Shown: in pieces, positions 37,501-53,176 of the stretch
Numbering within the stretch: position 1 is the first letter of the stretch
Layout: each line of letters opens with the position of its first letter
DNA from: Leucobacter sp. G161
Lineage (GTDB): Bacteria; Actinomycetota; Actinomycetes; Actinomycetales; Microbacteriaceae
Reading direction: 5' to 3'
DNA: 64,000 nt
Assembly (NCBI RefSeq): GCF_001482305.1
Contig: NZ_LOHP01000017.1
Coordinates: 62,001-126,000, forward strand
Notes under the pieces: model-generated
What the model was told of the DNA's origin: nothing
Databases searched by the model: none
What the model saw: only the letters and a program-made list of their open reading frames with translations
Position numbers and translations under genes: made by a program

Positions 37501-37956
37501 CTATCCGGCGACGAACAGCGCGATCGTGTCCGCCACGAGTGCAGGGTGCTCGGCGCCTTCGATCTCGATCGTCGTGCGGGAGCCGACGCGCCAGCCCTGG
37601 CGGCTCTCCTCCGCCGAGATCACTTCGATCCGTGCCCGCACCTTCGAACCGACCTTCACCGGCTGCAGGAAGCGAACCCGGTCGAGGCCGTAGTTGACGA
37701 CCATTGCGGCGTTGTCAACGGCCAGCAGGCCGCCCGTGAGGAACGGGATGAGTGAGAGTGTGAGGTAGCCGTGCGCGATGGTCGCGCCGAAGGGGCCAGT
37801 CGCGGCACGCTCGGCGTCGAGGTGGATCCACTGGTGATCGCCTGTCGCATCTGCGAAGGCCTGGATGCGTTCCTGATCGACCTGCAGCCATTCGCCGACG
37901 GCCGACTGGCCGATTGCCTCGGGCAGTGCGCTGGGGTGGGCTACTGAGATAGTCAT
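37501..37956 (-). CDS. MaoC-like (R)-specific enoyl-CoA hydratase
   Basis: 151-aa hot-dog protein with the hydratase-2 motif ADATGDHQWIHLD and FGATIAHGYLTLSL, holding the catalytic Asp/His. It would hydrate a trans-2-enoyl-CoA. Its ATG overlaps the stop of the upstream SDR gene, so it is the last gene of a four-gene acyl-CoA operon (dehydrogenase, thiolase, SDR, hydratase), which together can run one beta-oxidation-like cycle. Confidence 0.88.
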   Translation of the reverse strand: MTISVAHPSALPEAIGQSAVGEWLQVDQERIQAFADATGDHQWIHLDAERAATGPFGATIAHGYLTLSLIPFLTGGLLAVDNAAMVVNYGLDRVRFLQPVKVGSKVRARIEVISAEESRQGWRVGSRTTIEIEGAEHPALVADTIALFVAG

Positions 37957-38702
37957 GCGCGCGGCCCTCCTGCAACGTAGAGCACCTGGCCCGACACGAA
38001 GCTCGCGTCCTCGGAGCAGAAGAACGCTGCTGAGTTCGCGATGTCGTCCGGGGTGCCGGCCCTCCCGACAGGGACCTCCGCTGCCATGTGCTTCACAAAG
38101 TCCTCGAAGGAGAGGCCCATGCGCTCCGCGGTCGCGCGCGTCATGTCAGAGACGATGAAGCCGGGCGCGATTGCGTTCGCGGTGACACCGTAGCGGCCGA
38201 GCTCGATCGCCAGGGTCTTCGTGAGGCCCTGCATGCCAGCCTTCGCTGCCGAGTAGTTGGCCTGGCCGCGGTTGCCGAGCGCCGAGGTGCTCGACAGGTT
38301 CACGATACGACCCCAGTTGGCTTCGACCTGGTGCTTCTGCACCGCGCGGCTCATGAGGAATGCTCCGCGCAGGTGTACGCCGAGTACGGAATCCCAGTCG
38401 TCTTCGGTCATCTTGAAGAGCATGTTGTCGCGAATGATCCCCGCGTTGTTCACGAGGATGGTCGGGGCGCCGAGCTCGTCAACAACGCGAGCCACCGCGG
38501 CATCGACGGCCGCGCTGTCTGCGACGTTCGCTCCGACCGCGATCGCGCGGCCGCCTGCCTGGGTGATGGCGGTCACGGTGTCAGCACACGCAGCCTCGTC
38601 GAGGTCGAGCACGGCCACGGCGTGCCCGTCTTTCGCCAGTCGGATCGCGGTGGCTGCACCGATGCCGCGGGCCGCCCCGGTAACAATTGCAATGCGGGTC
38701 AT
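37953..38702 (-). CDS. SDR-family 3-hydroxyacyl-CoA/ACP dehydrogenase (FabG-like)
   Basis: 249-aa classical short-chain dehydrogenase: cofactor motif TGAARGIG, NNAG, catalytic Ser in NLSSTSA and Tyr-x3-Lys in NYSAAKAG, and the PGFIVSDMT segment. Asp in AVLDLDEA at the second strand end suggests NAD+ preference. Within a thiolase/hydratase operon it most likely oxidises a 3-hydroxyacyl-CoA, rather than making fatty acids. It has a 48-bp gap from the thiolase gene and an ATGA overlap with the MaoC-like gene. Confidence 0.88.
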   Translation of the reverse strand: MTRIAIVTGAARGIGAATAIRLAKDGHAVAVLDLDEAACADTVTAITQAGGRAIAVGANVADSAAVDAAVARVVDELGAPTILVNNAGIIRDNMLFKMTEDDWDSVLGVHLRGAFLMSRAVQKHQVEANWGRIVNLSSTSALGNRGQANYSAAKAGMQGLTKTLAIELGRYGVTANAIAPGFIVSDMTRATAERMGLSFEDFVKHMAAEVPVGRAGTPDDIANSAAFFCSEDASFVSGQVLYVAGGPRA

Positions 38703-38750
38703 AAGTTGAGTCCTCTCGGGAGTGATTGATACGGAGAATCGTGGGCGTGG

Positions 38751-39974
38751 TTACAGACGCTCGAGCACCATCGCCATGCCCTGGCCGCCGCCGACGCACA
38801 TGGTCTCGAGGCCGTAGCGACCGCCGGTTGCCTGGAGCCCGTTGATGAGTGTTGAGGTGATGCGTGCGCCGGTCATGCCAAACGGGTGGCCGACCGCGAT
38901 TGCGCCACCGTGGACGTTCAAGCGTTCCTCGTCGATGCCGAGTTCGCGTGCGGAGGGGATCACCTGAGCGGCGAACGCCTCGTTGATCTCGACGAGATCG
39001 ATATCGTCGATCGTGAGACCGGCCTTCGCGAGCGCACGCTGCGAGGACTCGACCGGACCGAGGCCCATGATCTCGGGGGAGAGGCCGCTGACACCCGTCG
39101 ACACGATGCGGGCGAGCGGCTGAAGCCCGAGCTCGTTGACGACCCGCTCGGAGACAACGACGAGCGCCGCGGCTCCGTCGTTGAGGGGGCAGCAGTTGCC
39201 AGCGGTGACGGTGCCGTCGGGGCGGAATACCGGGTCGAGGCCGGCGAGTGACTCGACCGTGACGCCAGCGCGCGGGCCGTCGTCGGCGGCCACGACAGTC
39301 CCGTCGGCGAGGGTCACCGGGGTAATGTCACGCTCCCAGAATCCGGAAGCGATGGCTGCTTCCGCGCGCTGCTGCGAGCGGGCCGCGAATGCGTCCTGCT
39401 CGTCGCGCGTGATCCCGTGGAGCTGCGCGACATTCTCGGCGGTTTGGCCCATCGCGATGTACGGGTCGGGGAGTGCGCCGGATTCGCGCGGGTCGGTCCA
39501 CTTCGGCGCGCCAGCGCCCTCGCGGGACAGGGAGTGCGCCATGGCGTCGGCGAAGAGCGGATTCTCGATCTCCACGCCGGGGGTGGCGTCTGCCATTCCC
39601 TGAGTGAAGCGGCTGACCATCTCGACACCAGCGGAGACGAACACGTCGCCCTCGCCAGCCTTGATCGCGTGGAAGGCCATCCGGGTGCTCTGCAGGGAGG
39701 ACGAGCAGTACCGGTTGACCGTGGTACCGGGGACGCCATCGAGGCCGAGCAGCACCGACACGATGCGGGCGATGTTGAAGCCCTGCTCGCCTGCGGGCTG
39801 ACCGCAGCCCAGGATGAGGTCTTCCACGCGGGCGGGGTCGAGCCCTGGCACCTGGTCGAGCGCTGCCTGCACCATGCGGGCTGCGAGGTCATCGCCACGC
39901 AGCGACGCGAGCGAACCCTTCCGCGCACGGCCAATCGGTGAGCGTGCGGTTGAAACGATGTATGCCTCTGGCAT
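38751..39974 (-). CDS. Acetyl-CoA acyltransferase (thiolase)
   Basis: 407-aa thiolase with the nucleophilic Cys in NRYCSSSLQ, His in [14 protein letters not shown] and the second Cys in [11 protein letters not shown], so catalytically complete. The context indicates the degradative direction: thiolytic cleavage of a 3-ketoacyl-CoA. It lies between the acyl-CoA dehydrogenase and SDR genes in the minus-strand operon. Chain-length specificity cannot be told. Confidence 0.93.
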
Positions 39975-40003
39975 CGGGTCTCCTCAGTGAGTGTTGGGTG
40001 TGG

Positions 40004-41215
40004 TTAGGTAAATGCTGCGATGCCGGTGATGGCTCGGCCGACGACGAGCGAGTTCATATCGTAGGTGCCGTCGAAGGTGTACACGGTCTCTGCGTCGGCG
40101 AAGTATCGTGCGACCCCGTAGTCGAGCTGGATCCCGTTGCCGCCGCAAATGTCGCGGCACATGGCGACGGTGTCGCGCATCCGTGCGGTGGTGAACGCCT
40201 TCACCATCGCCGCGTGCTCGTCGCTCTGTGAGCCCTCGTCCTGGAGCTGTGAGGCGCGCACGCACAGCGCCAGTGACGCGGTGATGTTCGCGAGGCTCTC
40301 TGAGAGCTTCAGCTGCACGAGCTGGAATGAGGCGATGGGTTTGCCGAATTGTTCGCGCTGCTTCGCGTAGGCCAGCGCCGCCTCGTAAGCAGCGATGGAG
40401 ACACCGACGGCCTGCCAGCCCACGCCAGCTCTGGCCTGCCGGAGCACCTCTGCAACCTCACGGAAACTCGACACATTCTGCAGCCGATCGTGCTCGGGCA
40501 CAATGACGTTGTCGAGCACAATGTCGGCGTTCTCGACGGCGCGCATGGACTGCTTGCGTTCGATCTTGGTTGCGGTGAACCCGGCGGCCGGGGTGCGGAC
40601 GATGAAACCCTTCACGTGATTGTCGGCGAGGTCTCTCGCCCAGATCACGACGAAGTCGGCGAAGACGGCGTTGCCGATCCACCGCTTTGCGCCGTTGAGT
40701 ACCCACTCGTCGCCGCGTCGTTCAGCCGTGGTCTCGAGACCCTTGGCTGTGTCGGAACCGTGGTTCGGCTCGGTGAGTCCGAAAGCGCCGATCTGCTCGC
40801 CGGTGACGAGTCTTGGCATCCACTCGGCGCGCTGCGCTTCGGAACCACCGACAGAGATCGCGCCCATCGCCAGGCCGGAGTGCACGCCAATGAGCGTTGC
40901 CGTTGAGGGATCTGCACTCGCGAGTTCCATCGCGACCCAGCCGCGGAATACTGCACTGTTTTCGAAGGGCGCGTAGTCGGGGAATGCGTGGCGGAACATG
41001 CCCATTTCTGCGGCGCGAGCGAGGAGATGCTTGGGGGGCTCTGCCCGCTCCCAATAGTCGTCTGCGAAGGGGCGAATCTCGGAGTCAAAGAACTCGCGGA
41101 GCTCGGCAAGGGCGCGCTGTTCTGTCTCCGTGAGTAGCTGCTGGAATGCGAAAAAATCAGCGGAAAGTCTGGCTGCTGGGGCGGAACCGCGTGGCGCGTC
41201 ATTGGGCGTGGTCAT
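40004..41215 (-). CDS. Acyl-CoA dehydrogenase, glutaryl-CoA-dehydrogenase-like, with Asp at the catalytic-base position
   Basis: 403-aa flavoprotein with the family elements FGLTEPNHGSDTAKG (FAD/substrate loop) and DICGGNGIQLDYGVARYFADAE. Its C-terminal motif is YTFDGTYDMNSLVVGRAITG. In glutaryl-CoA dehydrogenases and their relatives this is YEGTHD..., where the Glu is the catalytic base; here it is Asp382. The rest of the active site looks intact. ATG 41215 follows GGAGAG; a longer frame begins inside the operator region. It is the first gene of the thiolase-SDR-MaoC operon, divergent from a QsdR-like regulator. Confidence 0.85.
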   Translation of the reverse strand: MTTPNDAPRGSAPAARLSADFFAFQQLLTETEQRALAELREFFDSEIRPFADDYWERAEPPKHLLARAAEMGMFRHAFPDYAPFENSAVFRGWVAMELASADPSTATLIGVHSGLAMGAISVGGSEAQRAEWMPRLVTGEQIGAFGLTEPNHGSDTAKGLETTAERRGDEWVLNGAKRWIGNAVFADFVVIWARDLADNHVKGFIVRTPAAGFTATKIERKQSMRAVENADIVLDNVIVPEHDRLQNVSSFREVAEVLRQARAGVGWQAVGVSIAAYEAALAYAKQREQFGKPIASFQLVQLKLSESLANITASLALCVRASQLQDEGSQSDEHAAMVKAFTTARMRDTVAMCRDICGGNGIQLDYGVARYFADAETVYTFDGTYDMNSLVVGRAITGIAAFT

Positions 41216-41247
41216 GGTCTCTCCGATCGTCGGCGATCGTGACCAGT

Positions 41248-41294
41248 ATGCATCATATTTTGAAATGTGCACACTATTTCCAGAAATGTTGCAT
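41248..41294. promoter_or_regulatory. Nested operator between the acyl-CoA dehydrogenase and QsdR-like genes
   Basis: AT-rich 110-bp divergent intergenic region. Outer arms ATGCATCAT (41248-41256) and ATGTTGCAT (41286-41294) are near-perfect inverted repeats, centred on the palindrome TGTGCACA (41266-41273) that is flanked by GAAAT and ATTTC. It is a likely binding site for the divergent TetR-type regulator. Confidence 0.6.
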
Positions 41295-41313
41295 CGACCC
41301 GATAACGGGCCGA

Positions 41314-41319
41314 TAGAGT
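41314..41319 (+). promoter_or_regulatory. -10 element of the QsdR-like gene (leaderless)
   Basis: TAGAGT is 6 nt before ATG 41326. Confidence 0.5.
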
Positions 41320-41325
41320 AATCGG

Positions 41326-41961
41326 ATGAACAGCACAGTTGGCGCGCAGATCGCTCAGGTGGGCCTTGCAGCTGCCCCGTCCCTGCTGTCTGACCGGCTC
41401 GACACCCGTGACGACGCCATGCGTGCGTTCGAGGGTGCGCGTGAAGCGTTCATCGCCGGCAACCGCATCAGCATGGGCGAGCTCGCGGCAGATCTTGGGG
41501 TGGACCGGACATCGCTGTTTCGCTGGGTGGGGAACCGCGACGCGCTCCTGAGCGAGGTGCTGTGGTCACTGGCCGTGCCGACGTTTGTGCAGGGCGAGCA
41601 GGCGACGGCGCATCTCGAGGGTGCGCCGCGGCTCGCGGCGATGCTCACCAACTTTGTTGATGGTCTCATTAACGCCACCTACTTTCGGACCTTCCTCCGG
41701 CGGGAGCCCGCGCGTGCGCTCCGGCTGCTCACGACGAAGGAGAGCCCGATCCAGCGTCGCTTCCTTGCGACGGTCGAGTGGCTGGTGCGACGCGAACTCG
41801 GGGACGCCCCGCTCGGTGGCGCGATTGATCCCGCCGGGCTTGCGTACCTGCTCTCGCGGGTGTCCGAGTCATTCTCGTACGCGGATCTCATCTCGGGCGA
41901 TGAGCCCAGTGTCGAGCGGGCAAGCGCAGCGTTTCGTCTCCTGCTGCGCGTCGACGGTTAA
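41326..41961 (+). CDS. TetR-type regulator, QsdR-like
   Basis: 211-aa regulator with an HTH near residues 48-70 (SMGELAADLGVDRTSLFRWVGNRDALL) and a C-terminal ligand domain with LTTKESPIQRRFLATVEWLV and VSESFSYADLISG. This pattern fits my memory of the QsdR family, named for the Rhodococcus regulator of gamma-lactone catabolism. Divergent orientation to the acyl-CoA dehydrogenase operon and the palindrome between them suggest it controls that operon. The inducer is unknown; a lactone or hydroxyacyl-CoA is inference from the family. Confidence 0.8.
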   Translation: MNSTVGAQIAQVGLAAAPSLLSDRLDTRDDAMRAFEGAREAFIAGNRISMGELAADLGVDRTSLFRWVGNRDALLSEVLWSLAVPTFVQGEQATAHLEGAPRLAAMLTNFVDGLINATYFRTFLRREPARALRLLTTKESPIQRRFLATVEWLVRRELGDAPLGGAIDPAGLAYLLSRVSESFSYADLISGDEPSVERASAAFRLLLRVDG

Positions 41962-42135
41962 TCGAACCGGCAGGTAGCTCGCGCGCGACCCGAAAAAGCT
42001 CGCGGCGGAGCGGCCGTCGGTGGCGCTGACGTCAGTTGCTATGGCGTGTATTGCGGTGCCCTATTCGCAGACTCTGGGCACGCTGAGCGCATCGTGCGTG
42101 CGCTCGCCCGTGAAGTTGTGCCGCCCCCTCGCGCA

Positions 42136-42155
42136 CATACCGACCATCCGGTATG
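42136..42155 (+). promoter_or_regulatory. Operator A (ATACCG-N6-CGGTAT), kinase operon
   Basis: CATACCG and CGGTATG arms with 6-nt spacer ACCATC, about 45 bp before the kinase gene. It is the same 7-6-7 layout as operator C and shares the 6-bp arms of operator B. It overlaps a possible -10 (TATGCT). Confidence 0.7.
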
Positions 42156-42200
42156 CTCGGAATTGCGGCACGAAGAGGAGCCGTAGGAAGACAGGTGCAG

Positions 42201-43223
42201 ATGCCTGAGACCCCAGGCCTAGACGTTGCCGCGCTCACCACATGGTTGAGCAAGGCACACCCCGAACTCGCCGCAGGTCCGCTGCGCGCAGAGGTTATCG
42301 CAGGCGGCCGTTCGAACCTCACCTACTCGGTTGAGGGCGCACGAGTGCCGCTGGTTCTGCGCCGACCACCGCTCGGTCATGTGCTGTCGAGCGCGCACGA
42401 CATGGCTCGCGAACACCGAGTGATTTCGGCGCTCGCGGGCAGCGCGATTCCTGTCCCGACTGCAATCGACCTTGTCGACGACACCGGGGGCGACATCACC
42501 GGAACCACGTTCTTCCTCATGGAGAAGGCTCCGGGCAAGGTCGTCGTATCGCGCAAGCAGAACGATGCCTACACCAGTGATGAGATCCGCGATCTGAGCT
42601 TCGAGCTCATCCACCACCTTGCCGCACTGCATTCTGTGGATGTCGAAGCGGTCGGTTTGGAAGACTTCGGAAAACCCGTCGGCTATCTCACCAGGCAGCT
42701 TGCCACCTGGCGGCGGCAGCTCGACGCGTCGCGGTCGCGCGAAGTTCGCGTTCTCGATGAGCTCCAAGCAGCACTTGAGCAGGGCGTTCCGGAGACGACG
42801 CGCACCGGCATCGTGCACGGCGACTACCGGCTCGATAACGCTCTCGTCGACGGTAGCCCCCCGAAGATCTCGGCCATTCTCGACTGGGAGATGGCGACGC
42901 TCGGTGATCCCCTCGTCGACCTCGGGATCTTCGCGCTGTATTGGGACATCGGCAAGCTCCCCAGCGGCGGAGCGATCGCGAGCGCGGTCGATCCTGACGC
43001 CGGGTATCCCGAGTTTGAAGAACTCGCTGAATCCTACGCGGCTGAGGCAGGGATCACGCTCCCCGATCTCAGCTGGTACCGGGCATTCGCCGCGTACAAA
43101 CTCGCAGTGATCCTTGAGGGGATCCACTACCGCTATCAGGCCGGCGGCACCGTCGGCGAAGGATTTGACCGGATAGGTGAGCTCGTTGAGCCACTTGCCG
43201 AGAATGGATTGAAGGTGCTCTGA
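42201..43223 (+). CDS. APH-family kinase of the ACAD10/11-LvaA type
   Basis: 340-aa aminoglycoside-phosphotransferase-fold protein with the catalytic loop HGDYRLDN at 206-213 and the metal-binding LDWEMATLGDP. It is not a drug-resistance enzyme by context: its TGA overlaps the ATG of an acyl-CoA dehydrogenase, the same pair that is fused in eukaryotic ACAD10/ACAD11 and encoded as lvaA/lvaC in pseudomonad levulinate operons, where the kinase phosphorylates a 4-hydroxyacyl-CoA. ATG 42201 is chosen; GTG 42195 is closer to AGGAAG and also possible. Control is probably through operator A. Confidence 0.85.
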   Translation: MPETPGLDVAALTTWLSKAHPELAAGPLRAEVIAGGRSNLTYSVEGARVPLVLRRPPLGHVLSSAHDMAREHRVISALAGSAIPVPTAIDLVDDTGGDITGTTFFLMEKAPGKVVVSRKQNDAYTSDEIRDLSFELIHHLAALHSVDVEAVGLEDFGKPVGYLTRQLATWRRQLDASRSREVRVLDELQAALEQGVPETTRTGIVHGDYRLDNALVDGSPPKISAILDWEMATLGDPLVDLGIFALYWDIGKLPSGGAIASAVDPDAGYPEFEELAESYAAEAGITLPDLSWYRAFAAYKLAVILEGIHYRYQAGGTVGEGFDRIGELVEPLAENGLKVL

Positions 43224-44437
43224 TGGATTTCGCACACGACCAAAAAACACTCGAGCTCACAGCGAAGGTACGCGAGTTCCTCGACGAAAAGGTGCTCCCA
43301 GCCGAACCGATCCTCGATGAGCAGCTCGCTGCCGATCCCGATAACTGGGCGACGCAGCCCATCGTTCGCGAGCTTCAGGCTGAGGCGCGCGAGCGTGGTC
43401 TCTGGAACCTCTTCCTCCCGGGTGACCCCGCGGAGACCGGCGCAGCCGGCCTGACGAACCTGCAGTACGCTGCGGTCGCGGAGATCACCGGCTGGAGCCC
43501 GCGGCTCGCGCCTGAGGCCCTGAACTGCGCGGCACCCGACACGGGCAACATGGAGGTGCTCACCGACTTCGGCACCCCCGAACAGAAAGAGCGCTGGCTC
43601 ACGCCACTCCTGAACGCCGAGATCCGGTCGGCGTTCTGCATGACCGAGCCTGACGTCGCATCGAGCGACGCCACGAACATTGGCACGCTGATCCGCCGCG
43701 ATGGCGATGAGTACGTCATCAACGGTCGGAAGTGGTGGTCCACTGGCGCCATGAACCCCGAAGCCGAGATCTTCATCGTCATGGGGAAGACCGACCCCGA
43801 GGCAGAGCGGCACAAGCAGCAGTCAATGATTCTCGTCCCGCGGGATACGCCCGGCGTTGAAATTGTGCGTCCGCTCACCGTGTTTGGCTACAACGATCGC
43901 GACCACGGCGGGCACGCCGAGGTGCTGTTCACCGATGTGCGTGTGCCCGCCAGCAACATCATCGGCGCTGAGGGCGACGGTTTCGCCATCGCGCAGGCTC
44001 GCCTCGGTCCCGGACGTATCCACCACTGCATGCGCGCCCTCGGCATGGGGGAGCGTGCGCTGTCGCTCGCGATCGAACGCGCGAATTCCCGTCACGCGTT
44101 CGGCCGGTCGCTTTCCGAGCAGGGCGTGATCCGTGAATGGATCGCGGAGTCGCGGATCCAGCTCGACTCGCTTCGGCTGCTGGTGCTGAAGACCGCCTGG
44201 CTCATGGACACCGTCGGGAACCGGGCAGCGATGACCGAGATCCAGTCGATCAAGATCGCCGTGCCGCGCGCGGTCGCTGAGATCATCGATCGCGCGATCC
44301 AGGTGTTCGGTGGCGCAGGAGTCTGCGACGATACCCCGCTCGCCGGGCTGTACGCCGGGGTTCGCACGCTGCGGATCGCCGATGGCCCCGACGAGGTCCA
44401 CCTCAACAGCCTCGGGAGGGCACAGCTCAAGCTGTAA
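43223..44437 (+). CDS. Acyl-CoA dehydrogenase, ACAD10/11-LvaC type
   Basis: 404-aa flavoprotein with the FAD loop CMTEPDVASSDATN and WWSTGAMNP, and the subgroup-specific C-terminus QVFGGAGVCDDTPLA and LRIADGPDEVHLNSLGR. This ending is typical of ACAD10/11-related enzymes and differs from the YEGT type. In the levulinate pathway the homologue works with a kinase to convert 4-phosphohydroxyacyl-CoA to an enoyl- or 3-hydroxyacyl-CoA. Translational coupling (TGATG) to the kinase supports the same pairing. Substrate chain is unknown. Confidence 0.88.
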   Translation: MDFAHDQKTLELTAKVREFLDEKVLPAEPILDEQLAADPDNWATQPIVRELQAEARERGLWNLFLPGDPAETGAAGLTNLQYAAVAEITGWSPRLAPEALNCAAPDTGNMEVLTDFGTPEQKERWLTPLLNAEIRSAFCMTEPDVASSDATNIGTLIRRDGDEYVINGRKWWSTGAMNPEAEIFIVMGKTDPEAERHKQQSMILVPRDTPGVEIVRPLTVFGYNDRDHGGHAEVLFTDVRVPASNIIGAEGDGFAIAQARLGPGRIHHCMRALGMGERALSLAIERANSRHAFGRSLSEQGVIREWIAESRIQLDSLRLLVLKTAWLMDTVGNRAAMTEIQSIKIAVPRAVAEIIDRAIQVFGGAGVCDDTPLAGLYAGVRTLRIADGPDEVHLNSLGRAQLKL

Positions 44438-44478
44438 CCCTTCGGGCACCCGTCAGACACGTCAAAGGAGACACCACG

Positions 44479-46059
44479 ATGGCACACCCGCACGATCCCG
44501 CAGTAGACGGGAGAGGTTTCACGACGCTCTCGGTAGCGAGCATTCTCAGCGAATCGGCTGTGAGACATGCAGACCGGCCCGCCGTGTTTTATAACGACGA
44601 AGCGATCACCTACAGAGAACTGTGGGACCAATCCCGGGCCTACTCGGGCGCCCTGCGCGCCCGCGGGATCGGGCGGGGGGATCGTGTCGCGATGATGATC
44701 CCGAATGTGCCCGATTTTCCTCGCGTGTACTACGCCGTCCTCGCCCTCGGCGCGATCGTCGTGCCGATCCACCTGCTGCTCAAGGCAGAGGAGATCACGC
44801 GCACGCTGCAGGACGCCGGGGCGGATCTCTTCATCGCCTCGGCGACCTCGCTCGCCGAGGCGGCGCCTGCCGCCGCCGAAGCCGGAGTGCCGTTCATGAC
44901 CGTGCTCCTGCCTGCCGACGCACCCGGCGCGATTCCCCGGCTCGAGGCGGAGGCCGCCGCAGCAGAACCCATCACACGCATCGAACCGACCGGCCCGCTT
45001 GACGCAGCGACAATCCTGTTCACGAGCGGCACGACGGGTACGCCCAAGGGTGCTGTCGGAAGCCACCTCTCGATCATCGAGCAGGTGCATTCCGGTCTCA
45101 TCGATGGGGTTCAAGTGTCGAACCAGGACGTCACGTTCGGCGGGCTGCCGCTGTTCCACACCTTCGGGCAGACCTCGGTGCTGAACATGGCGTTCCGCGC
45201 GGGAAGCGCTGTGATCCTCATGCCGCGCTTCGACGGAGATCAAGCGCTCGAACTCATGGTCAAGCATCAGGCGACGGTGTTTGTCGGGGTGCCGACAATG
45301 TATGTCGGGTTGCTTGAGGCCGCGCGCCGCTCAGACGCGCGACCGCCGCTGAAATTCGCGAACTCCGGCGGTGCTGCCCTCCCGGTCGCGCTGCTGGAAG
45401 CGTTCGAGGAGGCCTACGGAGTTCCGCCGCATGAGGGGTACGGTCTCACTGAGACCGCACCCACCGTTACGGTGAATCGGTTCGGCGAGCCGACCGTGCC
45501 GGGCACCGTCGGGCAAACCCTCTGGGGCGTCGAGGTCGCACTCGCGGATCCGGACATCGAAGACCGCATTGAGTTTTTCGAGGGCGAGGGAGATCTTGGC
45601 GAGGTCATCGTACGTGGACACAACGTGTTCAAGGGGTACGTTGGTCGCGAGGAGGCCACGCAGGAGGCAATTGTCGATGGCTGGTTCCGCACTGGCGATC
45701 TGGGAACGTACGCCGATGGGATCCTGACCATCGTCGACCGGAAGAAGGACATGATCCTACGCTCTGGCTACAACGTCTACCCGACCGAGGTTGAAGCGGT
45801 GCTCGCACGCCATCCGAAGGTCGCTGCCTCGGCGGTGTTCGGCGTCGATGACGAGCTGCGTGGGCAAGAAATCCACGTGGCTGTGCTGCCGCTCGCCGGC
45901 ACAGAGATCGACCCGGCTGAGATCATCGAGTTCGCGAAGGAGCACGTCGCAGCCTACAAGTATCCCCGCGTCGTACACATCGTCGACGATCTCCCGTTGG
46001 GTGCGAGCGGCAAGATCCTGAAGCGCGAGCTGCAGCGGATCTACTCGCCAGCCAAGTAA
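44479..46059 (+). CDS. Acyl-CoA synthetase (AMP-forming)
   Basis: 526-aa ANL-superfamily ligase: P-loop TSGTTGTPKG at 182-191, EGYGLTETAP, GWFRTGDLG, the hinge DRKKDMILRSGYNVYPTEVE and C-terminal catalytic Lys in GASGKILKREL. It activates a carboxylic acid to its CoA ester, the entry step before the kinase and dehydrogenase encoded upstream. AAAGGAGA precedes the ATG. A perfect 23-bp hairpin ends the operon immediately after its stop. Confidence 0.93.
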   Translation: MAHPHDPAVDGRGFTTLSVASILSESAVRHADRPAVFYNDEAITYRELWDQSRAYSGALRARGIGRGDRVAMMIPNVPDFPRVYYAVLALGAIVVPIHLLLKAEEITRTLQDAGADLFIASATSLAEAAPAAAEAGVPFMTVLLPADAPGAIPRLEAEAAAAEPITRIEPTGPLDAATILFTSGTTGTPKGAVGSHLSIIEQVHSGLIDGVQVSNQDVTFGGLPLFHTFGQTSVLNMAFRAGSAVILMPRFDGDQALELMVKHQATVFVGVPTMYVGLLEAARRSDARPPLKFANSGGAALPVALLEAFEEAYGVPPHEGYGLTETAPTVTVNRFGEPTVPGTVGQTLWGVEVALADPDIEDRIEFFEGEGDLGEVIVRGHNVFKGYVGREEATQEAIVDGWFRTGDLGTYADGILTIVDRKKDMILRSGYNVYPTEVEAVLARHPKVAASAVFGVDDELRGQEIHVAVLPLAGTEIDPAEIIEFAKEHVAAYKYPRVVHIVDDLPLGASGKILKRELQRIYSPAK

Positions 46060-46110
46060 GCACATAGGTAGGGCTCCCGGGGATACACCCCGGGAGCCCT
46101 ACCTATGTGC
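46060..46110. terminator. Perfect 23-bp bidirectional hairpin
   Basis: 46060-46082 pairs exactly with 46088-46110 around loop ATACA. It starts right after the ligase TAA and ends 8 bp before the convergent binding-protein gene, so it can stop both transcripts. Confidence 0.85.
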
Positions 46111-46117
46111 GCCTGGC

Positions 46118-47401
46118 CTACGCGCCGGGAATTCCTTTCCCAACGAGCGGAACCGGATCGAGATCGATCGCCGAAACCGTATCGCCGTCGAGACGGTACG
46201 CCTTATCGACGAAGTCTTGGACGCCGTCGTTGACGATGCTGATGCCCACGCCGCGGTACGAGGAATAGTCGTCCTCGCTGAAGGACAGAGGAAGAACGCC
46301 GTTCCCGACGAGGTCGCCGGAGCGGATCGCCTCGACGATGGACTCACGCGTCGGCTGTTCACCTGCCGCAACGAGCGCCTCGGTGAAAAGGTACGCCGCG
46401 CTCATGCCGTTGAACACCGCGCCGGTAAACTCGGCGCCGCCGTTGTATTGATCATTGATCTCTTTGAACAACTGTGACCAGCCGTTGTCGGCGTCGGTCG
46501 ACTGGAGATACCCGGTCGCGACCAACCCGTCGAGCATGCCGGGGCCGGCGTCACCCAAGAGATCGAGGAGGACAGGGTAGTCGGCGCCCACCGAAGAGGT
46601 CATCCAGAGCGGCTCCCAGTCGAGACGAGCTGCGGTGGTCATCGCGAGCGCGGTGAAGCCAGGAATCGTTGACAAGATCGCGATCTCGCAGCCTGACGCC
46701 TTCATCGCACCAATCTGAGCCGTCACGTCTGGGTTTGAGGACGAGTACTGCTCGACCTGCACCAGGCCACCCTCGCCAAGCACCATCTCGGCTCCGGCGA
46801 GCATATCCTCGCCCAGGTCGTCATCCTGCCCGAGCTGGCAGACCTTCTGACCGGGATAGGTGTCTGCCGCATACTGCGCGAGTCCCGCTCCCTCAACGAC
46901 ATAGTCGGCGTTGAAGGGGAACATGTTTGGATACTCCTCGGGCTGATTCCACATGGTCGAACCCGAAGCTACGAACAGGTCGGGGACATCGTTGTCGTGC
47001 AAATAGTCGATGACGGAACTGTGTGGTGGTGTGCCAAGCCCGTTGAAGATTGCGAACACGCCCTCGTCCTGAACGAGCTCCCGCACGACCATCTGTGTGT
47101 TGGCGGGGTTGTATCCGTCATCTTTGACGATGTAATTGATGTTGCGCCCGTAGACTCCGCCGTTGTCATTGACGTATTCGAAATATGCGAGCGCAGCCGC
47201 TGATACAGACGCATAACCTGGGGCGGCCGGGCCTGTGAGCGGTGTGTGAGTGCCGATCGTCACGGTGTCGTCGGTGACACCGGGAGTCGCGGTGGTGCCG
47301 TCGCCAGAATCAGACGGCATGCTGCATCCACTGAGGACGAGCGCAGTGACTGCGGTTGCCGCTGCGAGCGCGACAGGGGTAGTGCGAATACGGGAATTCA
47401 T
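46118..47401 (-). CDS. Branched-chain-type ABC substrate-binding lipoprotein 1
   Basis: 427-aa periplasmic-binding type 1 (LivJ-like) protein. Residues 1-30 are a lipoprotein signal with lipobox LSGC, so it is membrane-anchored outside the cell. The domain begins VTDDTVTIGTHTPLTGPAAPG. It is a close paralogue of the gene upstream: long blocks such as NPANTQMVVRELVQD are identical. ATG 47401 follows AGAGGG; a longer open frame runs through the intergenic hairpin. It is the last gene of the importer operon. The ligand is unknown; it need not be an amino acid given the acyl-CoA context. Confidence 0.9.
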   Translation of the reverse strand: MNSRIRTTPVALAAATAVTALVLSGCSMPSDSGDGTTATPGVTDDTVTIGTHTPLTGPAAPGYASVSAAALAYFEYVNDNGGVYGRNINYIVKDDGYNPANTQMVVRELVQDEGVFAIFNGLGTPPHSSVIDYLHDNDVPDLFVASGSTMWNQPEEYPNMFPFNADYVVEGAGLAQYAADTYPGQKVCQLGQDDDLGEDMLAGAEMVLGEGGLVQVEQYSSSNPDVTAQIGAMKASGCEIAILSTIPGFTALAMTTAARLDWEPLWMTSSVGADYPVLLDLLGDAGPGMLDGLVATGYLQSTDADNGWSQLFKEINDQYNGGAEFTGAVFNGMSAAYLFTEALVAAGEQPTRESIVEAIRSGDLVGNGVLPLSFSEDDYSSYRGVGISIVNDGVQDFVDKAYRLDGDTVSAIDLDPVPLVGKGIPGA

Positions 47402-47429
47402 GGGTCCCTCTTCTCTGCGTGGTGGTGGA

Positions 47430-47461
47430 CCCGAGGGGCCGGCGGGAACCGGCCCCTCGGG
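47430..47461 (-). promoter_or_regulatory. Intercistronic hairpin between the two binding-protein genes
   Basis: CCCGAGGGGCCGG pairs exactly with CCGGCCCCTCGGG around a 6-nt loop. It lies in the 76-bp gap between the paralogous genes and could protect the upstream mRNA 3' end or attenuate read-through. Confidence 0.6.
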
Positions 47462-47477
47462 GCTGAACGCGCACTGA

Positions 47478-48776
47478 TTAGGAGCCGGGGATACCGCCTG
47501 GGACAAACGGAACCGGATCCATAGCCACACGGGTGGCCTTGCCGTCTTCGACGGTGTACGCGACATCGATGTAGTCCTGCTGGCCATCCTCAACCTCGAG
47601 GATTCCCACGGTGTAGTACGAACCGTGGCTCTTCGGACCGAAGGCGAGTGGAGCAATGCCGTTGCCCTTTAGCTCGCCAGAGCGAATGACGTCGAGGATC
47701 CCCTCTCGGGTTGGGTTCTCGCCGGTCTTTTCAAGCGCTTCCGTGAAGAGGTACGCGACACTCATCCCGAATACGACGTTCTCAGTAAACGGTGCGCTGC
47801 TGTTGTACGTGTCGTTGATTTCGCGGAAGAGCTCTACCCACTCGCTGTCTCCATATGCGGTGGGAAGATAGTTCACACCAACGAGCCCCTCGATCAACGC
47901 TGGGCCGGCATCCTCGCCGAGGATGTCCATCAGGGTCGTGTGGTCCAAGCCGACTGAGGTGGCAAACCACTTGGTGTCCCAGCCGATGCGGGCGGAAGTG
48001 CTGAGCGCCAGCGCCGTAAACGCCGGAATGCTGCCCAGGACGTTCACTTCGCAGCCGGCCGCCTGCATTGCGCCGATTTGCGCGGTGATGTCAGGGTTTG
48101 AGGTCGAGTATTCCTCGGCCAGTGTGATCCCATCCGCGCCGAGGGCTTCTTCGACTCCTTCAAGGATGAACCCACCGAGATCGTCATCCTGCCCAAGCAC
48201 GCACACCTTCTGGCCGGGGTACTCGTCAACGGCATACTGTGCCAGCGCTGCGCCCTCAACCGAGTAGTCAGCGTTGAACGGGAAGGTGTACGGGAACTTT
48301 TCTGGCTGATTCCAGTTCTTTGACCCGGTGGCGATGAAGAGGTCAGGAACCTGATTCTCGTTGAGGTACTCGAGCACCGATGTGTGGGCGGCTGTTCCGA
48401 TGCCGTTGAAGACGGCAAACACGTTGTCGTCCTGGACGAGTTCCCGGACGACCATTTGGGTATTCGCTGGGTTATACGCATCATCCTTGATGATGTAGTT
48501 GATTGTCCTGCCGTGAATGCCACCGTTGGCATTCACATACTCGAAGTACGCGAGCGCTGCTGCGGAAACCGACGAGTAACCGGGGGCTGCGGGGCCCGTG
48601 AGCGGAGTGTGCGTGCCGATCGTGATTGAGTCATCGGTTACCCCGGGAACCGCTGACGCGTCACCATTTCCCTGGCCATTGGGCGTACTGCAGCCTGTGA
48701 GTACGAGAGCCGCTGCCGCGGTCGCGGCGGCGATTGCAACAGCTGTGTTGCGCTTAATCATGAACATTGAAGACAT
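47478..48776 (-). CDS. Branched-chain-type ABC substrate-binding lipoprotein 2
   Basis: 432-aa LivJ-like lipoprotein with lipobox LTGC after a 28-residue signal, and VTDDSITIGTHTPLTGPAAPG at the domain start. It is very similar to the downstream paralogue over the whole length, with most differences in the second lobe, so the pair probably broadens ligand range. The ATG at 48776 lies 3 nt after the LivM-like stop; ATGs at 48767 and 48761 are alternatives. Confidence 0.9.
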   Translation of the reverse strand: MSSMFMIKRNTAVAIAAATAAAALVLTGCSTPNGQGNGDASAVPGVTDDSITIGTHTPLTGPAAPGYSSVSAAALAYFEYVNANGGIHGRTINYIIKDDAYNPANTQMVVRELVQDDNVFAVFNGIGTAAHTSVLEYLNENQVPDLFIATGSKNWNQPEKFPYTFPFNADYSVEGAALAQYAVDEYPGQKVCVLGQDDDLGGFILEGVEEALGADGITLAEEYSTSNPDITAQIGAMQAAGCEVNVLGSIPAFTALALSTSARIGWDTKWFATSVGLDHTTLMDILGEDAGPALIEGLVGVNYLPTAYGDSEWVELFREINDTYNSSAPFTENVVFGMSVAYLFTEALEKTGENPTREGILDVIRSGELKGNGIAPLAFGPKSHGSYYTVGILEVEDGQQDYIDVAYTVEDGKATRVAMDPVPFVPGGIPGS

Positions 48777-48779
48777 CTT

Positions 48780-49850
48780 TCACTCAGTGGATACAGGGTG
48801 TGCGGGTACCCCGGAAGCCTGCTCTGGCCCCCGAGACTTGGGCTTGGGGAGAAGATCGACGAGGCCACCCGGTCGCACGAGAATCGTGACGGTGAGCAGG
48901 GCGCCGAAGATCAGCACGGGCAGGTTGCCTGTGAGCCGCTGGGTCATATCTGCGGAAAGCGGAAGTACCGAGGTCGCGGTCGTGATGAGCCAGGGCAGCA
49001 TGACGACGAGTACCGAGCCGAGGGCCGCGCCTCCGATACTGCCGAGGCCTCCGAGCACGACGGCAACGACGAGTAGCAGCGAGAACGGGAGCGTGTACGC
49101 TCCGGGGCTTACCGATTGCGTGATGAAGCAGAGCACGGCCCCGCCAGCGCCGGCTGCGATGGCGCTGACGGTAAAGGCGGTGACTTTGACCCTGCCAGCG
49201 GCGACGCCGTTGAGCCGCGCCGCGGTTTCGTCGTCTCGAACGGCGCGCATGCGCAGGCCGAATGATCCGTTCCGAAGGAGCACGAGCCAGGTGACAAGCA
49301 CGCCGGCGACGAGGATCGCGACCCACGCGTGCCACTGCTCCGTAGCGATCAGGGTGCGTAGCGCTTCGGGCACGCCCTGGTACGGGCTGGGAAGGCCCTG
49401 GTCGCCGCCGAGCACCTTGAACGTCGCTGCTACCGCCGGCACGGAGACCACGAGGGCCAGCGTGATCCCTGCAAGGTACGGGCCGTGGAGCCTGGCTGCT
49501 GCGAGCCCGAGGAGCAGGCCGACGACGCCTGCGACGAGCATTGCTACGACGAGCGAAATCAGGAACCTGGGGAGTCCCGCGACATCAGCATCGGCGAGTG
49601 CATTCGCGGTGAGGGCATAACTGTAGCCGCCGGTTGCCATGAGAGCGGCGTGGCCAAGGGAGAGCTGTCCGCTCTGGCCTACGAGAAGCGTGAGCCCGGC
49701 TGTCACACAGAAGTAGGCAGCGATCGTCGCAAACTGGAAGTTGCGATATGGATCGAGGATGAATGTAGCGCCGATCGCAAGCACCGTGAGTATCGCGCCG
49801 AACACGATAATGCGGCTGCGGCCGGTCAACGAGGGCAGGACGCGGGTCAT
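48780..49850 (-). CDS. ABC permease, LivM-type
   Basis: 356-aa membrane protein with about ten hydrophobic segments and the LivM/LivH signature LVGQSGQLSLGHAALMATGG, plus the coupling-loop FGLRMRAVRDDETAARLNG. It pairs with the LivH-type subunit whose stop overlaps its ATG (ATGA at 49847-49850). The C-terminus continues past the last helix into a 25-residue Pro/Ser/Lys tail. The open frame extends upstream but only as livH shadow. Confidence 0.9.
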   Translation of the reverse strand: MTRVLPSLTGRSRIIVFGAILTVLAIGATFILDPYRNFQFATIAAYFCVTAGLTLLVGQSGQLSLGHAALMATGGYSYALTANALADADVAGLPRFLISLVVAMLVAGVVGLLLGLAAARLHGPYLAGITLALVVSVPAVAATFKVLGGDQGLPSPYQGVPEALRTLIATEQWHAWVAILVAGVLVTWLVLLRNGSFGLRMRAVRDDETAARLNGVAAGRVKVTAFTVSAIAAGAGGAVLCFITQSVSPGAYTLPFSLLLVVAVVLGGLGSIGGAALGSVLVVMLPWLITTATSVLPLSADMTQRLTGNLPVLIFGALLTVTILVRPGGLVDLLPKPKSRGPEQASGVPAHPVSTE

Positions 49851-50725
49851 GCGCTGCGCTCCTTCCGTGTCGAGAACACTCCGCCCGGCTTGACGAGCAA
49901 GACGAGTACGAGGAGTACGAGAACACCGATCGGCGCGACTGTCGCGCCGAGATATCCGGTGAGTAGGCTCATCGCGACCCCGACGGTCAGGCCGCCCAGC
50001 AGGGCACCAACAGGGGAGTCGAGGCCGCCAATGACGGCGACGGCAAACGCATAAATGAACAGCATGTCCGTGGCGTGGGGATTCAGCCCGAGCTCGGTGG
50101 GGACGAGCAGTATCGCGGCGAGGGCTGCGACGGCGCTCGAGAGCATCCACCCGATTGTTACCATGCGCGTGACCCGCACACCGAGCAGCCGGGAGACATC
50201 GGGGGCGAACGCTGATGCTCGAAGCTGCAAGCCCAGGGAAGTCTTCGTAAAGACCACCGCAAGCGCGATCATCACCACCAACGTCACGCCGATGGTGAAG
50301 AGGTCGTTGGGCGACAACAGCGGGACACCGCCGATCACGATTGCGCTGCGGTCAAACGGGGCAGCCATGGCCCGATACTGCGACCCAAAGAAGATCCCGA
50401 GGAGTGACTGCAGCACCATCACGAGGCCGATCGCTGCGAGCACACCGGTAAGCGGAGACGACTGCGGCGCAAACCGCATGACGCCACGTTCAACGATGAA
50501 GCCCATCAGCGCTCCGGTCAGGATTCCCGCAGCGAGGCCAGCAAAGTAGCTGCCCGTCGCTCCCGAGACTGCGAAAGCAACGTAGGTGGCTACGAGCGCC
50601 ATCGCTCCTTGCGCGAAGTTGATGATGCGGGTAGCGCGCCAAATGAGCACGAGTGACAGGGCGAACAGCGCGAAGATCGCTCCGCGCGCGAGCCCTGTGG
50701 CGAAGAGAAAAGCAAATCTATCCAT
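49847..50725 (-). CDS. ABC permease, LivH-type
   Basis: 292-aa membrane protein with about eight segments, the N-terminal LIWRATRIINFAQGAMALV and the coupling-helix region LGLQLRASAFAPDVSRLLGV typical of LivH. The ATG at 50725 shares one base with the stop of the upstream ATPase gene (TGATG). Together with LivM it forms the pore of the importer fed by the two lipoproteins. Confidence 0.91.
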   Translation of the reverse strand: MDRFAFLFATGLARGAIFALFALSLVLIWRATRIINFAQGAMALVATYVAFAVSGATGSYFAGLAAGILTGALMGFIVERGVMRFAPQSSPLTGVLAAIGLVMVLQSLLGIFFGSQYRAMAAPFDRSAIVIGGVPLLSPNDLFTIGVTLVVMIALAVVFTKTSLGLQLRASAFAPDVSRLLGVRVTRMVTIGWMLSSAVAALAAILLVPTELGLNPHATDMLFIYAFAVAVIGGLDSPVGALLGGLTVGVAMSLLTGYLGATVAPIGVLVLLVLVLLVKPGGVFSTRKERSA

Positions 50726-51459
50726 CAGAATCCCAAGTAGGCGTGTCGAAGAGCGGAGTCCTCGGCGAGCGTGGCTGCGTCTGCATCGACGACCACCTTG
50801 CCGAGATTGAGCACGATGCCACGGTCGGCAATCGAGAGCGCGCCGGTGACATTCTGTTCGGCGAGCAATACGGTGAGGCCTCGTTCGCGGGCGGTCTCGC
50901 GCAGCGTGCGCATGATCTGCGCGACGACAAGCGGAGCGAGCCCCAGTGAAGGCTCGTCGAGCGCGATGAGCCGTGGCTCCGCGATGAGCGCCCGGCCCAG
51001 GGCAAGCATTTGGCGCTCGCCGCCGGAGAGCTGGTGGCCGTCGGCGAGTTTTCTGCGATCGAGGGGCTCGAACATCTCGTAGATCCGCTGGATCGCTTGT
51101 TCGCGTGCCGGACCACGGTGGCGCCACAGCGCTCCGAGGCGAAGGTTCTCATCCACGGTGAGTTCGCCGACGACGCTTTGTCCGTCAGGCACCAGAGCGA
51201 GTCCGAGCCTGGCGCGATCCTCGGTGCGCATACCCCGGAGGTCCTTCCCGTCGAGCGACAGAGCTCCGCTGGTGACGGGAACTCGACCGGTGAGGGCGCC
51301 AAGCAGAGTGGTTTTCCCGGCTCCGTTCGCCCCCAACAGCGCGACGACTTCGCCGGGGCTGAGGTCGACGTTGACACCGTGGAGCACTGGCCCGCCACCG
51401 TAACCCACGGTGAGGTCTCGGATGGAGAGGGCAGCGCCAGCTAAGGGTTCGGTCGTCAC
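50725..51459 (-). CDS. ABC ATPase, LivF-type
   Basis: 244-aa nucleotide-binding subunit with Walker A GANGAGKTT, Q-loop VPDGQSVV, the complete signature LSGGERQM, Walker B LIALDEPSLGL and H/switch-region AEQNV. The switch position is Gln rather than His, which is common in LivF. It overlaps its neighbours on both sides in the minus-strand operon. Confidence 0.92.
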   Translation of the reverse strand: MTTEPLAGAALSIRDLTVGYGGGPVLHGVNVDLSPGEVVALLGANGAGKTTLLGALTGRVPVTSGALSLDGKDLRGMRTEDRARLGLALVPDGQSVVGELTVDENLRLGALWRHRGPAREQAIQRIYEMFEPLDRRKLADGHQLSGGERQMLALGRALIAEPRLIALDEPSLGLAPLVVAQIMRTLRETARERGLTVLLAEQNVTGALSIADRGIVLNLGKVVVDADAATLAEDSALRHAYLGF

Positions 51460-52211: not shown

Positions 52212-52252
52212 CGGCACCTCTTCGTGTCGTTGGTGGCGCCACCGTACCGGAA

Positions 52253-52270
52253 ATACCGACCGGACGGTAT
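52253..52270 (-). promoter_or_regulatory. Operator B (ATACCG-N6-CGGTAT), ABC operon
   Basis: ATACCGACCGGACGGTAT is an almost perfect 18-bp palindrome, 42 bp before the LivG-type gene. It shares its arms with operators A and C. Confidence 0.75.
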
Positions 52271-52341
52271 GTCTGATTCTCGATTGTGATCTATCGCGGC
52301 TCGGGGCTAGTGTCGAGACGTGTGGTCGGTGCTAAAGTATT

Positions 52342-52361
52342 CATACCGACTGGACGGTATG
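52342..52361 (+). promoter_or_regulatory. Operator C (ATACCG-N6-CGGTAT), SDR-TetR operon
   Basis: CATACCG and CGGTATG arms with spacer ACTGGA, 19 bp before ATG 52381 and just after a TAAAGTATT -10-like stretch, so a bound dimer would cover the transcription start. Confidence 0.75.
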
Positions 52362-52380
52362 TACGACGCAAGGAGGCGCC

Positions 52381-53124: not shown

Positions 53125-53176
53125 CTGGCACTCTTGCAGGTTGGCGGTCCCCGGCACAGGGAAGTAATAGGGAAGA

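Follow-up and report, generated by a model that had tools for sequence, protein, structure and literature searches.

A candidate catabolic cluster for short 4-hydroxy or 4-oxo carboxylic acids in Leucobacter sp. G161, with two predicted TetR-type switches

The locus described here raises two questions, namely which substrate is handled by an operon that couples an aminoglycoside phosphotransferase (APH)-fold kinase to an acyl-CoA dehydrogenase (ACAD), and which of two nearby TetR-type regulators controls it. The stretch analysed, hereafter the window, is 64,000 nucleotides of Leucobacter sp. G161 (family Microbacteriaceae; NZ_LOHP01000017.1, or G000:C17:62001-126000 in our numbering, where G denotes genomes, C contigs and L fetched loci), from a genome of 3.55 Mb. 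An earlier note on this DNA had singled out positions 41326-46059, which hold a QsdR-like regulator and a kinase-dehydrogenase-ligase operon, and had read both as clues to 4-hydroxyacids or gamma-lactones. The regulator, APH-fold kinase, ACAD10/11-type dehydrogenase, ligase and divergent beta-oxidation operon that it described are all present, and the cluster extends beyond them to 37501-55498, adding short-chain dehydrogenase/reductase (SDR), TetR, quinone-oxidoreductase-like (QOR) and further SDR genes up to 55498. The gene set, residues, operators and co-occurrence reported below were computed directly. The region from 37.5 to 55.5 kb probably serves the catabolism of a short carboxylic acid with a 4-hydroxy and/or 4-oxo group, with the kinase, the importer and an SDR (SDR2) in a regulon under the second regulator, here called TetR24. 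In more general terms, the cluster very probably imports and degrades fatty-acid-like molecules with a hydroxyl on carbon 4.

The kinase and dehydrogenase

By sequence, the kinase and dehydrogenase are a split ACAD10/11 pair of the LvaA/LvaC type, as the earlier note had supposed, and both matches to ACAD11 and conserved residues support this. The predicted 4-hydroxyacyl-CoA kinase (LvaA/ACAD10-11-type, + strand) is listed as an open reading frame (ORF) from 42153, but homology and a purine-rich stretch favour a start at 42201; it ends at 43223, where its stop codon overlaps the start of the dehydrogenase as TGATG. The dehydrogenase (43223-44437, + strand) is a predicted LvaC/ACAD11-type 4-phosphoacyl-CoA dehydroxylase. 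In phmmer comparisons with the PDB, its best matches were the ACAD11 chains (2wbi, 8v3u, 8v3v; E 5e-136 to 4e-134), followed by 4hr3 (6e-122), with ordinary short-chain ACADs far lower (E 1.5e-42); in bits, ACAD11 scored 457 against 149.5 for the best ordinary ACAD. For the kinase, the order was 9o56 (E 1e-53), 3dxp (E 7e-52, labelled putative acyl-CoA dehydrogenase) and ACAD11 (E 1e-43).

The top structure, 9o56, was deposited under the generic name aminoglycoside phosphotransferase, and this, together with the APH fold and weak matches to APH(3') and capreomycin kinase models, could be taken to mean that the protein is an antibiotic kinase. The scores for those models, 41 and 31 bits, lie far below their cut-offs (205 and 390), however, and capreomycin, viomycin and hygromycin kinases give values no better than 4e-6, as compared with 1e-43 for ACAD11. 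The operon context also speaks against resistance, and this reading can be practically dismissed.

In the ACAD10/11 literature (PMC12440821; PMC11342911), PMC12440821 names mouse ACAD11 residues R626, R631, H634, R637 (HCMR motif) and D753, and kinase residues D220, N225, R176 and R86, reports the residues that hold the 4-phospho group, and describes residues shared by ACAD10/11 and LvaC. Taking the 8v3u/8v3v chains as mouse ACAD11 numbered one lower than that paper, and numbering the window kinase without its initiator Met, eight of these nine residues could be placed and all eight are identical, namely R260, R265, H268, R271 and D387 in the dehydrogenase (HCMR at 268-271) and D207, N212 and R164 in the kinase. 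The Arg-HCMR stretch was retained in 143 and the ADGPDEVH-type loop in 144 of 147 tblastn matches with at least 55% identity, counts in which loci overlap and matches repeat. A split ACAD10/11 pair argues for 4-hydroxyacyl-CoA chemistry, in which the dehydrogenase is predicted to form a 2-enoyl-CoA from a 4-phosphoacyl-CoA.

The same phosphorylation and elimination might act on another hydroxyacyl-CoA (5-hydroxy, branched or ring-bearing) in place of a simple 4-hydroxy fatty acid. PMC12440821 describes a broad pocket for ACAD11, and a kinase-ACAD11 pair on a Streptomyces sp. NBC_00388 plasmid (L058, 4654-18311) lies beside AfsA-related, ketosynthase III and CoA-transferase genes, perhaps for the synthesis or degradation of butyrolactone-type molecules; from this context, family members may therefore serve other molecules. 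Against this stands the conservation, in the window pair, of the residues to which binding of the 4-phospho group has been ascribed, and we consider this alternative unlikely.

A second kinase-ACAD pair is encoded elsewhere in the same genome (L051, G000:C74, 8122-10349), 38% and 37% identical to the first and adjoining an SDR2-like gene (59%), and its ACAD retains RLGPARLTHCMR and an IYDG loop. With such a neighbour and these motifs, a second pathway of like kind is likely.

The operator of the kinase operon and its regulator

A search for inverted repeats returned CATACCG-N6-CGGTATG at 42136-42155 and at 52342-52361, with a related repeat at 52250. The core, ATACCG-N6-CGGTAT, occurs in three perfect copies in the window (six at up to two mismatches, against 0.86 expected), and these are exactly the three perfect copies of the whole genome. 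They lie before the kinase (ATACCGACCATCCGGTAT, 42137-42154, intergenic; the predicted operator of the kinase operon, perfect in five of five cluster-bearing congeners) and between the importer and SDR operons (ATACCGACCGGACGGTAT, 52253-52270, 36 bp ahead of LivG; ATACCGACTGGACGGTAT, 52343-52360, about 20 bp ahead of SDR2). At up to two mismatches the genome holds 84 copies, most of which are background since the reversed pattern gives 31. Two clusterless congeners, G001 and G021, have no perfect copy and two and three, respectively, at one mismatch. Across the 35 loci scanned, 60 sites were found at up to one mismatch, none inside a matched gene; 49 precede a matched gene, in most cases that of the kinase, LivG or SDR2, and 11 precede unmatched genes. 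Three of these 11 were read, and an alcohol dehydrogenase-SDR1 pair lies downstream in each, with Pfam support for one. The idea that the missing lactonase is the gene that relatives carry between the operator and SDR1 was rejected, since the three loci read have an alcohol dehydrogenase there.

Two TetR-type proteins could own these sites, the QsdR-like regulator (41326-41961, + strand) and TetR24 (53177-53821, + strand), which carries a TetR_C_24 domain. Among 299 genomes drawn evenly across the family, the QsdR-like protein (E <= 1e-15) was found in 31, the kinase orthologue (E <= 1e-80) in 25 and TetR24 (E <= 1e-40) in 21. Kinase and TetR24 are common to 20 genomes, kinase and QsdR-like protein to 14, and all 21 TetR24 genomes carry the kinase and ACAD11-type genes, including G310, whose kinase falls below the cut-off and in which both genes adjoin TetR24. 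Some TetR24 matches contain stop codons, which in the three loci aligned across them lie near residue 200, the natural end of the protein. All 20 kinase genomes with TetR24 have the palindrome in the locus fetched, as opposed to none of the five without (G118, G181, G302, G325, G339), and it lies within 120 bp of the kinase in 18 of the 20; in G128 and G190 it stands farther up, ahead of SDR1-MaoC-kinase. By contrast, it occurs in 12 of 14 kinase genomes with the QsdR-like protein and in 8 of 11 without. Fisher tests gave P 1.9e-5 for TetR24 and 0.62 for the QsdR-like protein, values that ignore phylogeny. This suggests TetR24 as the binder of the palindromes, which it is predicted to own from operator co-occurrence and similarity to PfmR. 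The idea that the palindrome is a site of the QsdR-like protein was rejected on the second comparison and on the lack of any copy, at up to one mismatch, in 332 kb around loci with the QsdR-like gene and no kinase.

The association reaches beyond the family. In 76 distant actinobacterial loci, taken from the best 80 of at least 578 kinase relatives with four close ones left out, a relaxed operator lies ahead of the kinase in 50, of which 45 also encode a homologue of TetR24 nearby in the locus (38% identity or more across 120 residues); 24 loci have neither. Exact-palindrome scans had found few copies here, and a scan with a weight matrix built from family sites revealed a one-base variant, scoring at least 15 bits ahead of the kinase in 49 of 75 distant loci; among 1500 random stretches, a set that includes some overlaps with true sites, 2.6% reached this score. 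Most of the distant loci are from Streptomyces and therefore not independent events.

The QsdR-like regulator and the question of lactones

An alternative, proposed in the earlier note, is that the cluster serves gamma-lactones sensed by the QsdR-like protein and opened to 4-hydroxyacids for the kinase and dehydrogenase. The assignment of the regulator itself is borne out, with Pfam TetR_C_36 at 127.6 bits (cut-off 33.7) and the structure 4za6 as best solved match (E 3.4e-12; the next at 0.043). The structure 4za6 is named as QsdR, and the QsdR of Rhodococcus erythropolis as a lactone-responsive repressor, in PMC6262395; contrary to this, calorimetry found no binding of two tested N-acyl homoserine lactones to QsdR (PMC4640858). 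The similarity of the window protein to QsdR is in any case remote.

No lactonase such as qsdA diverges from the regulator, whose neighbour is an ordinary ACAD (ACAD1, 40004-41215, - strand, identified by profile matches) in the window and the thiolase in four congeners. In genomes with the QsdR-like protein and no kinase, ACAD1 is its divergent neighbour in 17 of 17. The motif AATGTTGCA is common to 25 of 35 stretches between ACAD1 (or thiolase) and the QsdR-like gene, and a pattern of TGCAACATT, a spacer of 5-9 and AATGTTGCA, allowing three mismatches, found 29 sites in 49 loci (906 kb), every one with a spacer of 6 bases. All but one of these (in L202) lie between ACAD1 and the QsdR-like gene, in 27 of 37 loci bearing that gene, with none near the kinase and none in the 12 kinase loci that lack the QsdR-like gene. 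The claim that the regulator and the kinase point to the same substrate class was thus not borne out, since the QsdR-like protein keeps its place and its own operator where the kinase is absent, and the kinase operon has a different operator that tracks the other TetR. The QsdR-like protein was also found in none of the 76 distant loci (E <= 1e-6), nor on plasmids (E <= 1e-10).

In the window, the intergenic region (41216-41325) holds the half-sites TGCATCAT and AATGTTGCA, and the full pattern was found neither in the window at up to four mismatches nor in five congener loci. The QsdR-like switch may therefore be decaying or altered in the genus. The possibility that ACAD1 was inserted in the window lineage was rejected; it adjoins the QsdR-like gene across the wider family and is missing in four congeners, so loss is likelier. 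One loop of ACAD1 reads FDGT, whereas FEGT or YEGT stands in 25 of the 27 loops that could be extracted (43 further matches yielded none), with Asp in G000 and its near relative G038 only. The Glu of this loop is the catalytic base.

As for the lactone-opening step, the earlier note saw no lactonase, and this holds on inspection by eye of the ORFs of 34-64 kb, with lactonase families other than the phosphotriesterase (PTE) family not searched for. A single PTE homologue (E <= 1e-5) is encoded in the genome, on another contig and with 30% identity, and gene-level support for gamma-lactone entry was not found in this organism. The cluster on the Tsukamurella tyrosinosolvens plasmid NZ_LR134470.1 (L057), in which the ACAD11-like protein is 68% identical, does add a PTE-family gene, whose product has 4if2 ('phosphotriesterase homology protein') as its closest solved match (E 2e-109) and also matches 2vc5-type chains at E 3e-68. 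We take 4if2 to be the PPH of Mycobacterium tuberculosis and 2vc5 to be SsoPox, known for lactonase activity. Lactone entry is therefore possible in relatives as an add-on, unproven here. A further argument against lactone entry is that a neutral lactone would need no solute importer. Searches of the literature on actinobacterial 4-hydroxyacid or gamma-valerolactone catabolism, bacterial relatives of ACAD11 and the QsdR family, at the level of titles, did not find such a cluster. Taken together, the gamma-lactone pathway is improbable, even though the QsdR-like protein is present in 14 of the 25 kinase genomes, more often than expected by chance, and shares a contig with the kinase in 13 of them, which makes the two modules frequent neighbours.

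Proposed pathway and organisation of the cluster

The reactions, substrates and protein-operator pairings of the preferred reading, a cluster for a short 4-hydroxy and/or 4-oxo acid, are ones that we infer. The acid would be taken up by the ATP-binding cassette (ABC) importer and converted to its CoA ester by the ligase. A 4-oxo group, if present, would be reduced by SDR2, perhaps with QOR and SDR3, after which the kinase would phosphorylate the 4-hydroxyl and the ACAD11-type enzyme would eliminate the phosphate to give a 2-enoyl-CoA, with no net oxidation. One round of beta-oxidation by the MaoC-type enzyme, SDR1 and thiolase would follow, yielding acetyl-CoA and propionyl-CoA from a C5 substrate. 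The kinase operon, the importer and the SDR2-TetR-QOR-SDR3 operon would form one regulon, controlled by the PfmR-like TetR at 53177 through ATACCG-N6-CGGTAT, and the QsdR-like TetR at 41326 would be a separate local switch of the ACAD1-thiolase arm.

The genes concerned are arranged as follows. The divergent operon ACAD-thiolase-SDR-MaoC runs from 41215 down to 37501 on the - strand, with the thiolase after ACAD1 (38751-39974; NCBIfam NF005890, 723.6 bits, cut-off 580), then the FabG-like SDR1 (37953-38702; SDR/FabG models), with a putative role as 3-hydroxyacyl-CoA dehydrogenase, and the MaoC-type enoyl-CoA hydratase (37501-37956; MaoC_dehydratas, 87 bits; retained in relatives). The acyl-CoA ligase (44479-46059, + strand; AMP-binding, 279 bits) closes the kinase operon; its match in the congener G019 comes in two pieces within one region (L045, 8356-9929), perhaps through a frameshift or sequencing error. 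Between the convergent ligase and binding-protein operons lies a perfect 23-bp inverted repeat (46060-46110), probably a two-way terminator.

The dedicated ABC importer recognised in the earlier note was confirmed, and additionally shares the predicted operator with the kinase operon. Its genes, all on the - strand, encode substrate-binding protein 2 (46118-47401; Peripla_BP_6, 188 bits), substrate-binding protein 1 (47478-48776; best PDB match 4n03, E 1.4e-19), a LivM-like (48780-49850) and a LivH-like permease (49847-50725; both BPD_transp_2), a LivF-like ATPase (50725-51459; ABC_tran) and a LivG-like ATPase (51456-52217; ABC_tran, BCA_ABC_TP_C). Solved structures gave only remote matches from which to read its substrate. 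One importer thus has two tandem substrate-binding proteins (46118-48776), and in G019 three such matches follow one another (L045). On the + strand, TetR24 is preceded by the carbonyl-reductase-like SDR2 (52381-53124; best PDB match DHRS4, E 3e-50) and followed by QOR (53763-54767; ADH_zinc_N), a quinone-oxidoreductase or enone-reductase-like medium-chain dehydrogenase/reductase, and SDR3 (54764-55498; ORF and profile match). From the common operator and its recurrence near kinase-ACAD pairs, SDR2 is a candidate for the LvaD (4-oxoacyl reductase) role.

Congeners as well as Microbacterium, Agromyces and Promicromonospora carry these modules too, within the limits of the stretches fetched, and the cluster is therefore more than a chance arrangement. 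Among the best 80 of at least 578 kinase matches, the closest named are from Microbacterium psychrotolerans (73%), Agromyces agglutinans (64%), Cellulomonas cellasea (62%) and Promicromonospora citrea (59%). Within the genus, 13 of 54 genomes have a kinase match at E <= 1e-20, with close orthologues (81-96%) in five congeners (G003, G004, G018, G019, G038) and 49% identity in G034. The five congener stretches hold the same modules as far as they reach (LivH was not in the query set), with ACAD1 not at the locus in G003, G004, G018 and G019; the best genome-wide ACAD1 match in those four is at 39%, to a gene that G000 has alongside ACAD1. This absence fits the proposed pathway, because one round of beta-oxidation would suffice without an ordinary ACAD.

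The importer suggests that the substrate is a charged acid, and the dispensable ACAD1 that its chain is short, although neither argument amounts to proof. A more specific version is that the substrate is levulinate (4-oxopentanoate), making the cluster an actinobacterial counterpart of the lva operon. The importer, SDR2 and other reductases under the kinase-operon operator, the ligase adjoining the kinase, the complete set for one round of beta-oxidation and an ACAD1 that congeners can dispense with would all agree with this, but chain length and 4-oxo as opposed to 4-hydroxy entry are not fixed by these genes, the SDR families are too broad, and some relatives have an alcohol dehydrogenase under the same operator. 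Levulinate as the sole answer is possible, though on balance doubtful.

Several observations count against the broader reading of a TetR24-controlled cluster for 4-hydroxy or 4-oxo acids. TetR24 shares only 27% identity with PfmR, and the sites of the two differ in register. R86 of the mouse kinase could not be placed, because the numbering puts it on a Phe of the chain (the window kinase has R69 beside the helix-C Glu). Three of the five palindrome-less loci are short contigs (4.1, 7.8 and 16.5 kb), and the shortest, G325, cannot be judged. In the distant set, the operator occurs without TetR24 in five loci and TetR24 without the operator in two, and the Tsukamurella cluster and four other plasmid loci (L057-L061) hold no copy at up to one mismatch. 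Finally, other ACADs elsewhere in the congener genomes that lack ACAD1 could serve longer chains.

Comparison with known systems

TetR24 is closest in the PDB to 3dcf (2e-22) and then to 3vpr (3e-14), which we take to be PfmR of Thermus thermophilus HB8. It is 27% identical (E 2.5e-16) to the TetR of pTT27 (TTHB023 by position), with a PfmR-like helix-turn-helix in the alignment, and the TetR_C_24 domain scores 63 bits in TetR24 and 124 in PfmR. According to PMC7022988, PfmR (TTHB023) binds CCTACCGACCGGTCGG with a KD of 0.3 nM, its deletion raises TTHB014 (phosphotransferase) by 1.86 and TTHB015 (acyl-CoA dehydrogenase) by 1.68 log2, the thiolase TTHA0987 belongs to the regulon, and the regulon is named for phenylacetate and fatty acids. 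With TTHB numbers assigned by gene order, the Thermus operon encodes SDRs, a MaoC protein, a short AMP-binding protein, TTHB015 (42% identical to the window dehydrogenase, with the Arg, HCMR and the Asp loop IYDG) and TTHB014 (30% identical to the window kinase). The regulon (TTHB023-TTHB014, TTHA0750, TTHA0987) thus resembles the window cluster in its TetR_C_24 regulator, in sites containing TACCGACCGGTCGG and in enzyme classes (MaoC, SDRs, AMP-binding protein, HCMR-type ACAD, APH kinase, thiolase), whereas it differs in sequence, in site register, in having DUF6285 and a thioesterase, and in the lack of an importer among the 19 features seen. In pTT27, next to the PfmR operon, the kinase gene is overlapped by the DUF6285 gene (L282, 695-1045), which may encode a kinase partner; DUF6285 was not found in the window genome or in the three relatives searched.

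We tentatively propose, at a little below an even chance, that PfmR-family TetRs acting through TACCGACC/GGTCGGTA operators generally control 4-hydroxyacyl-CoA phosphorylation and elimination, from Thermus to Streptomyces and this family. The window and Thermus sites share the string TACCGACC/GGTCGG, but their symmetry centres differ and the Thermus site scores low on the matrix. The proposal was given less weight because the selected consensus of PfmR (PMC7022988) is centred on ACCG-N2-CGGT, as opposed to ACCG-N6-CGGT here, and because the natural Thermus site has three mismatches to the pattern used here and 14.8 matrix bits against 23.2 for the lowest training site; the low identity of the two regulators likewise tells against it. 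No paper was found that joins PfmR or TTHB014 with LvaA, ACAD10, 4-hydroxyacyl-CoA or levulinic acid, within a thin coverage of subscription journals. If the proposal is true, the Thermus phenylacetate/fatty-acid operon would serve 4-hydroxyacids, and its effector would likely be a 4-hydroxy- or 4-phosphoacyl-CoA.

Other systems are alike in part. The lva operon of Pseudomonas putida, which serves levulinate, also has the kinase and the ACAD-family protein as separate genes, and the residues that ACAD10/11 and LvaC share (PMC12440821) are present here, the likeness being known through ACAD10/11 and these published residues; the ABC importer, the in-cluster beta-oxidation set and the PfmR-like operator set the window cluster apart. 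Mammalian ACAD10 and ACAD11 agree in active-site residues and as the best solved dehydrogenase and third kinase match, with one fused protein there and split genes here. The qsd operon of R. erythropolis (qsdR-qsdA-qsdC) has in common the remotely similar regulator and a nearby CoA ligase, whereas the window cluster has no QsdA-like gene and its QsdR-like protein is tied to ACAD1-thiolase and another operator. The Tsukamurella plasmid carries in one run the thiolase (72%), SDR2 (60%), QOR (56%), SDR1 (75%), MaoC (54%), kinase (44%), ACAD11-like protein and ligase (43%), with a TetR_C_24 regulator adjoining; in addition to its PTE-family gene it differs in a HAD protein, extra ACADs, an MFS transporter, the absence of an ABC importer in the 19 kb seen and the absence of the palindromes.

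The role of mammalian ACAD10/11 on 4-hydroxy fatty acids was established only recently, in papers of 2024-2025, and a bacterial cluster with an importer, a regulator and a predicted operator makes both substrate and inducer testable. A remote QsdR label alone should not be used to name the substrate of a pathway. The described Thermus regulon may be re-read in the light of this cluster, which would also be a source of parts for the use of levulinate or other 4-substituted acids in Actinobacteria.

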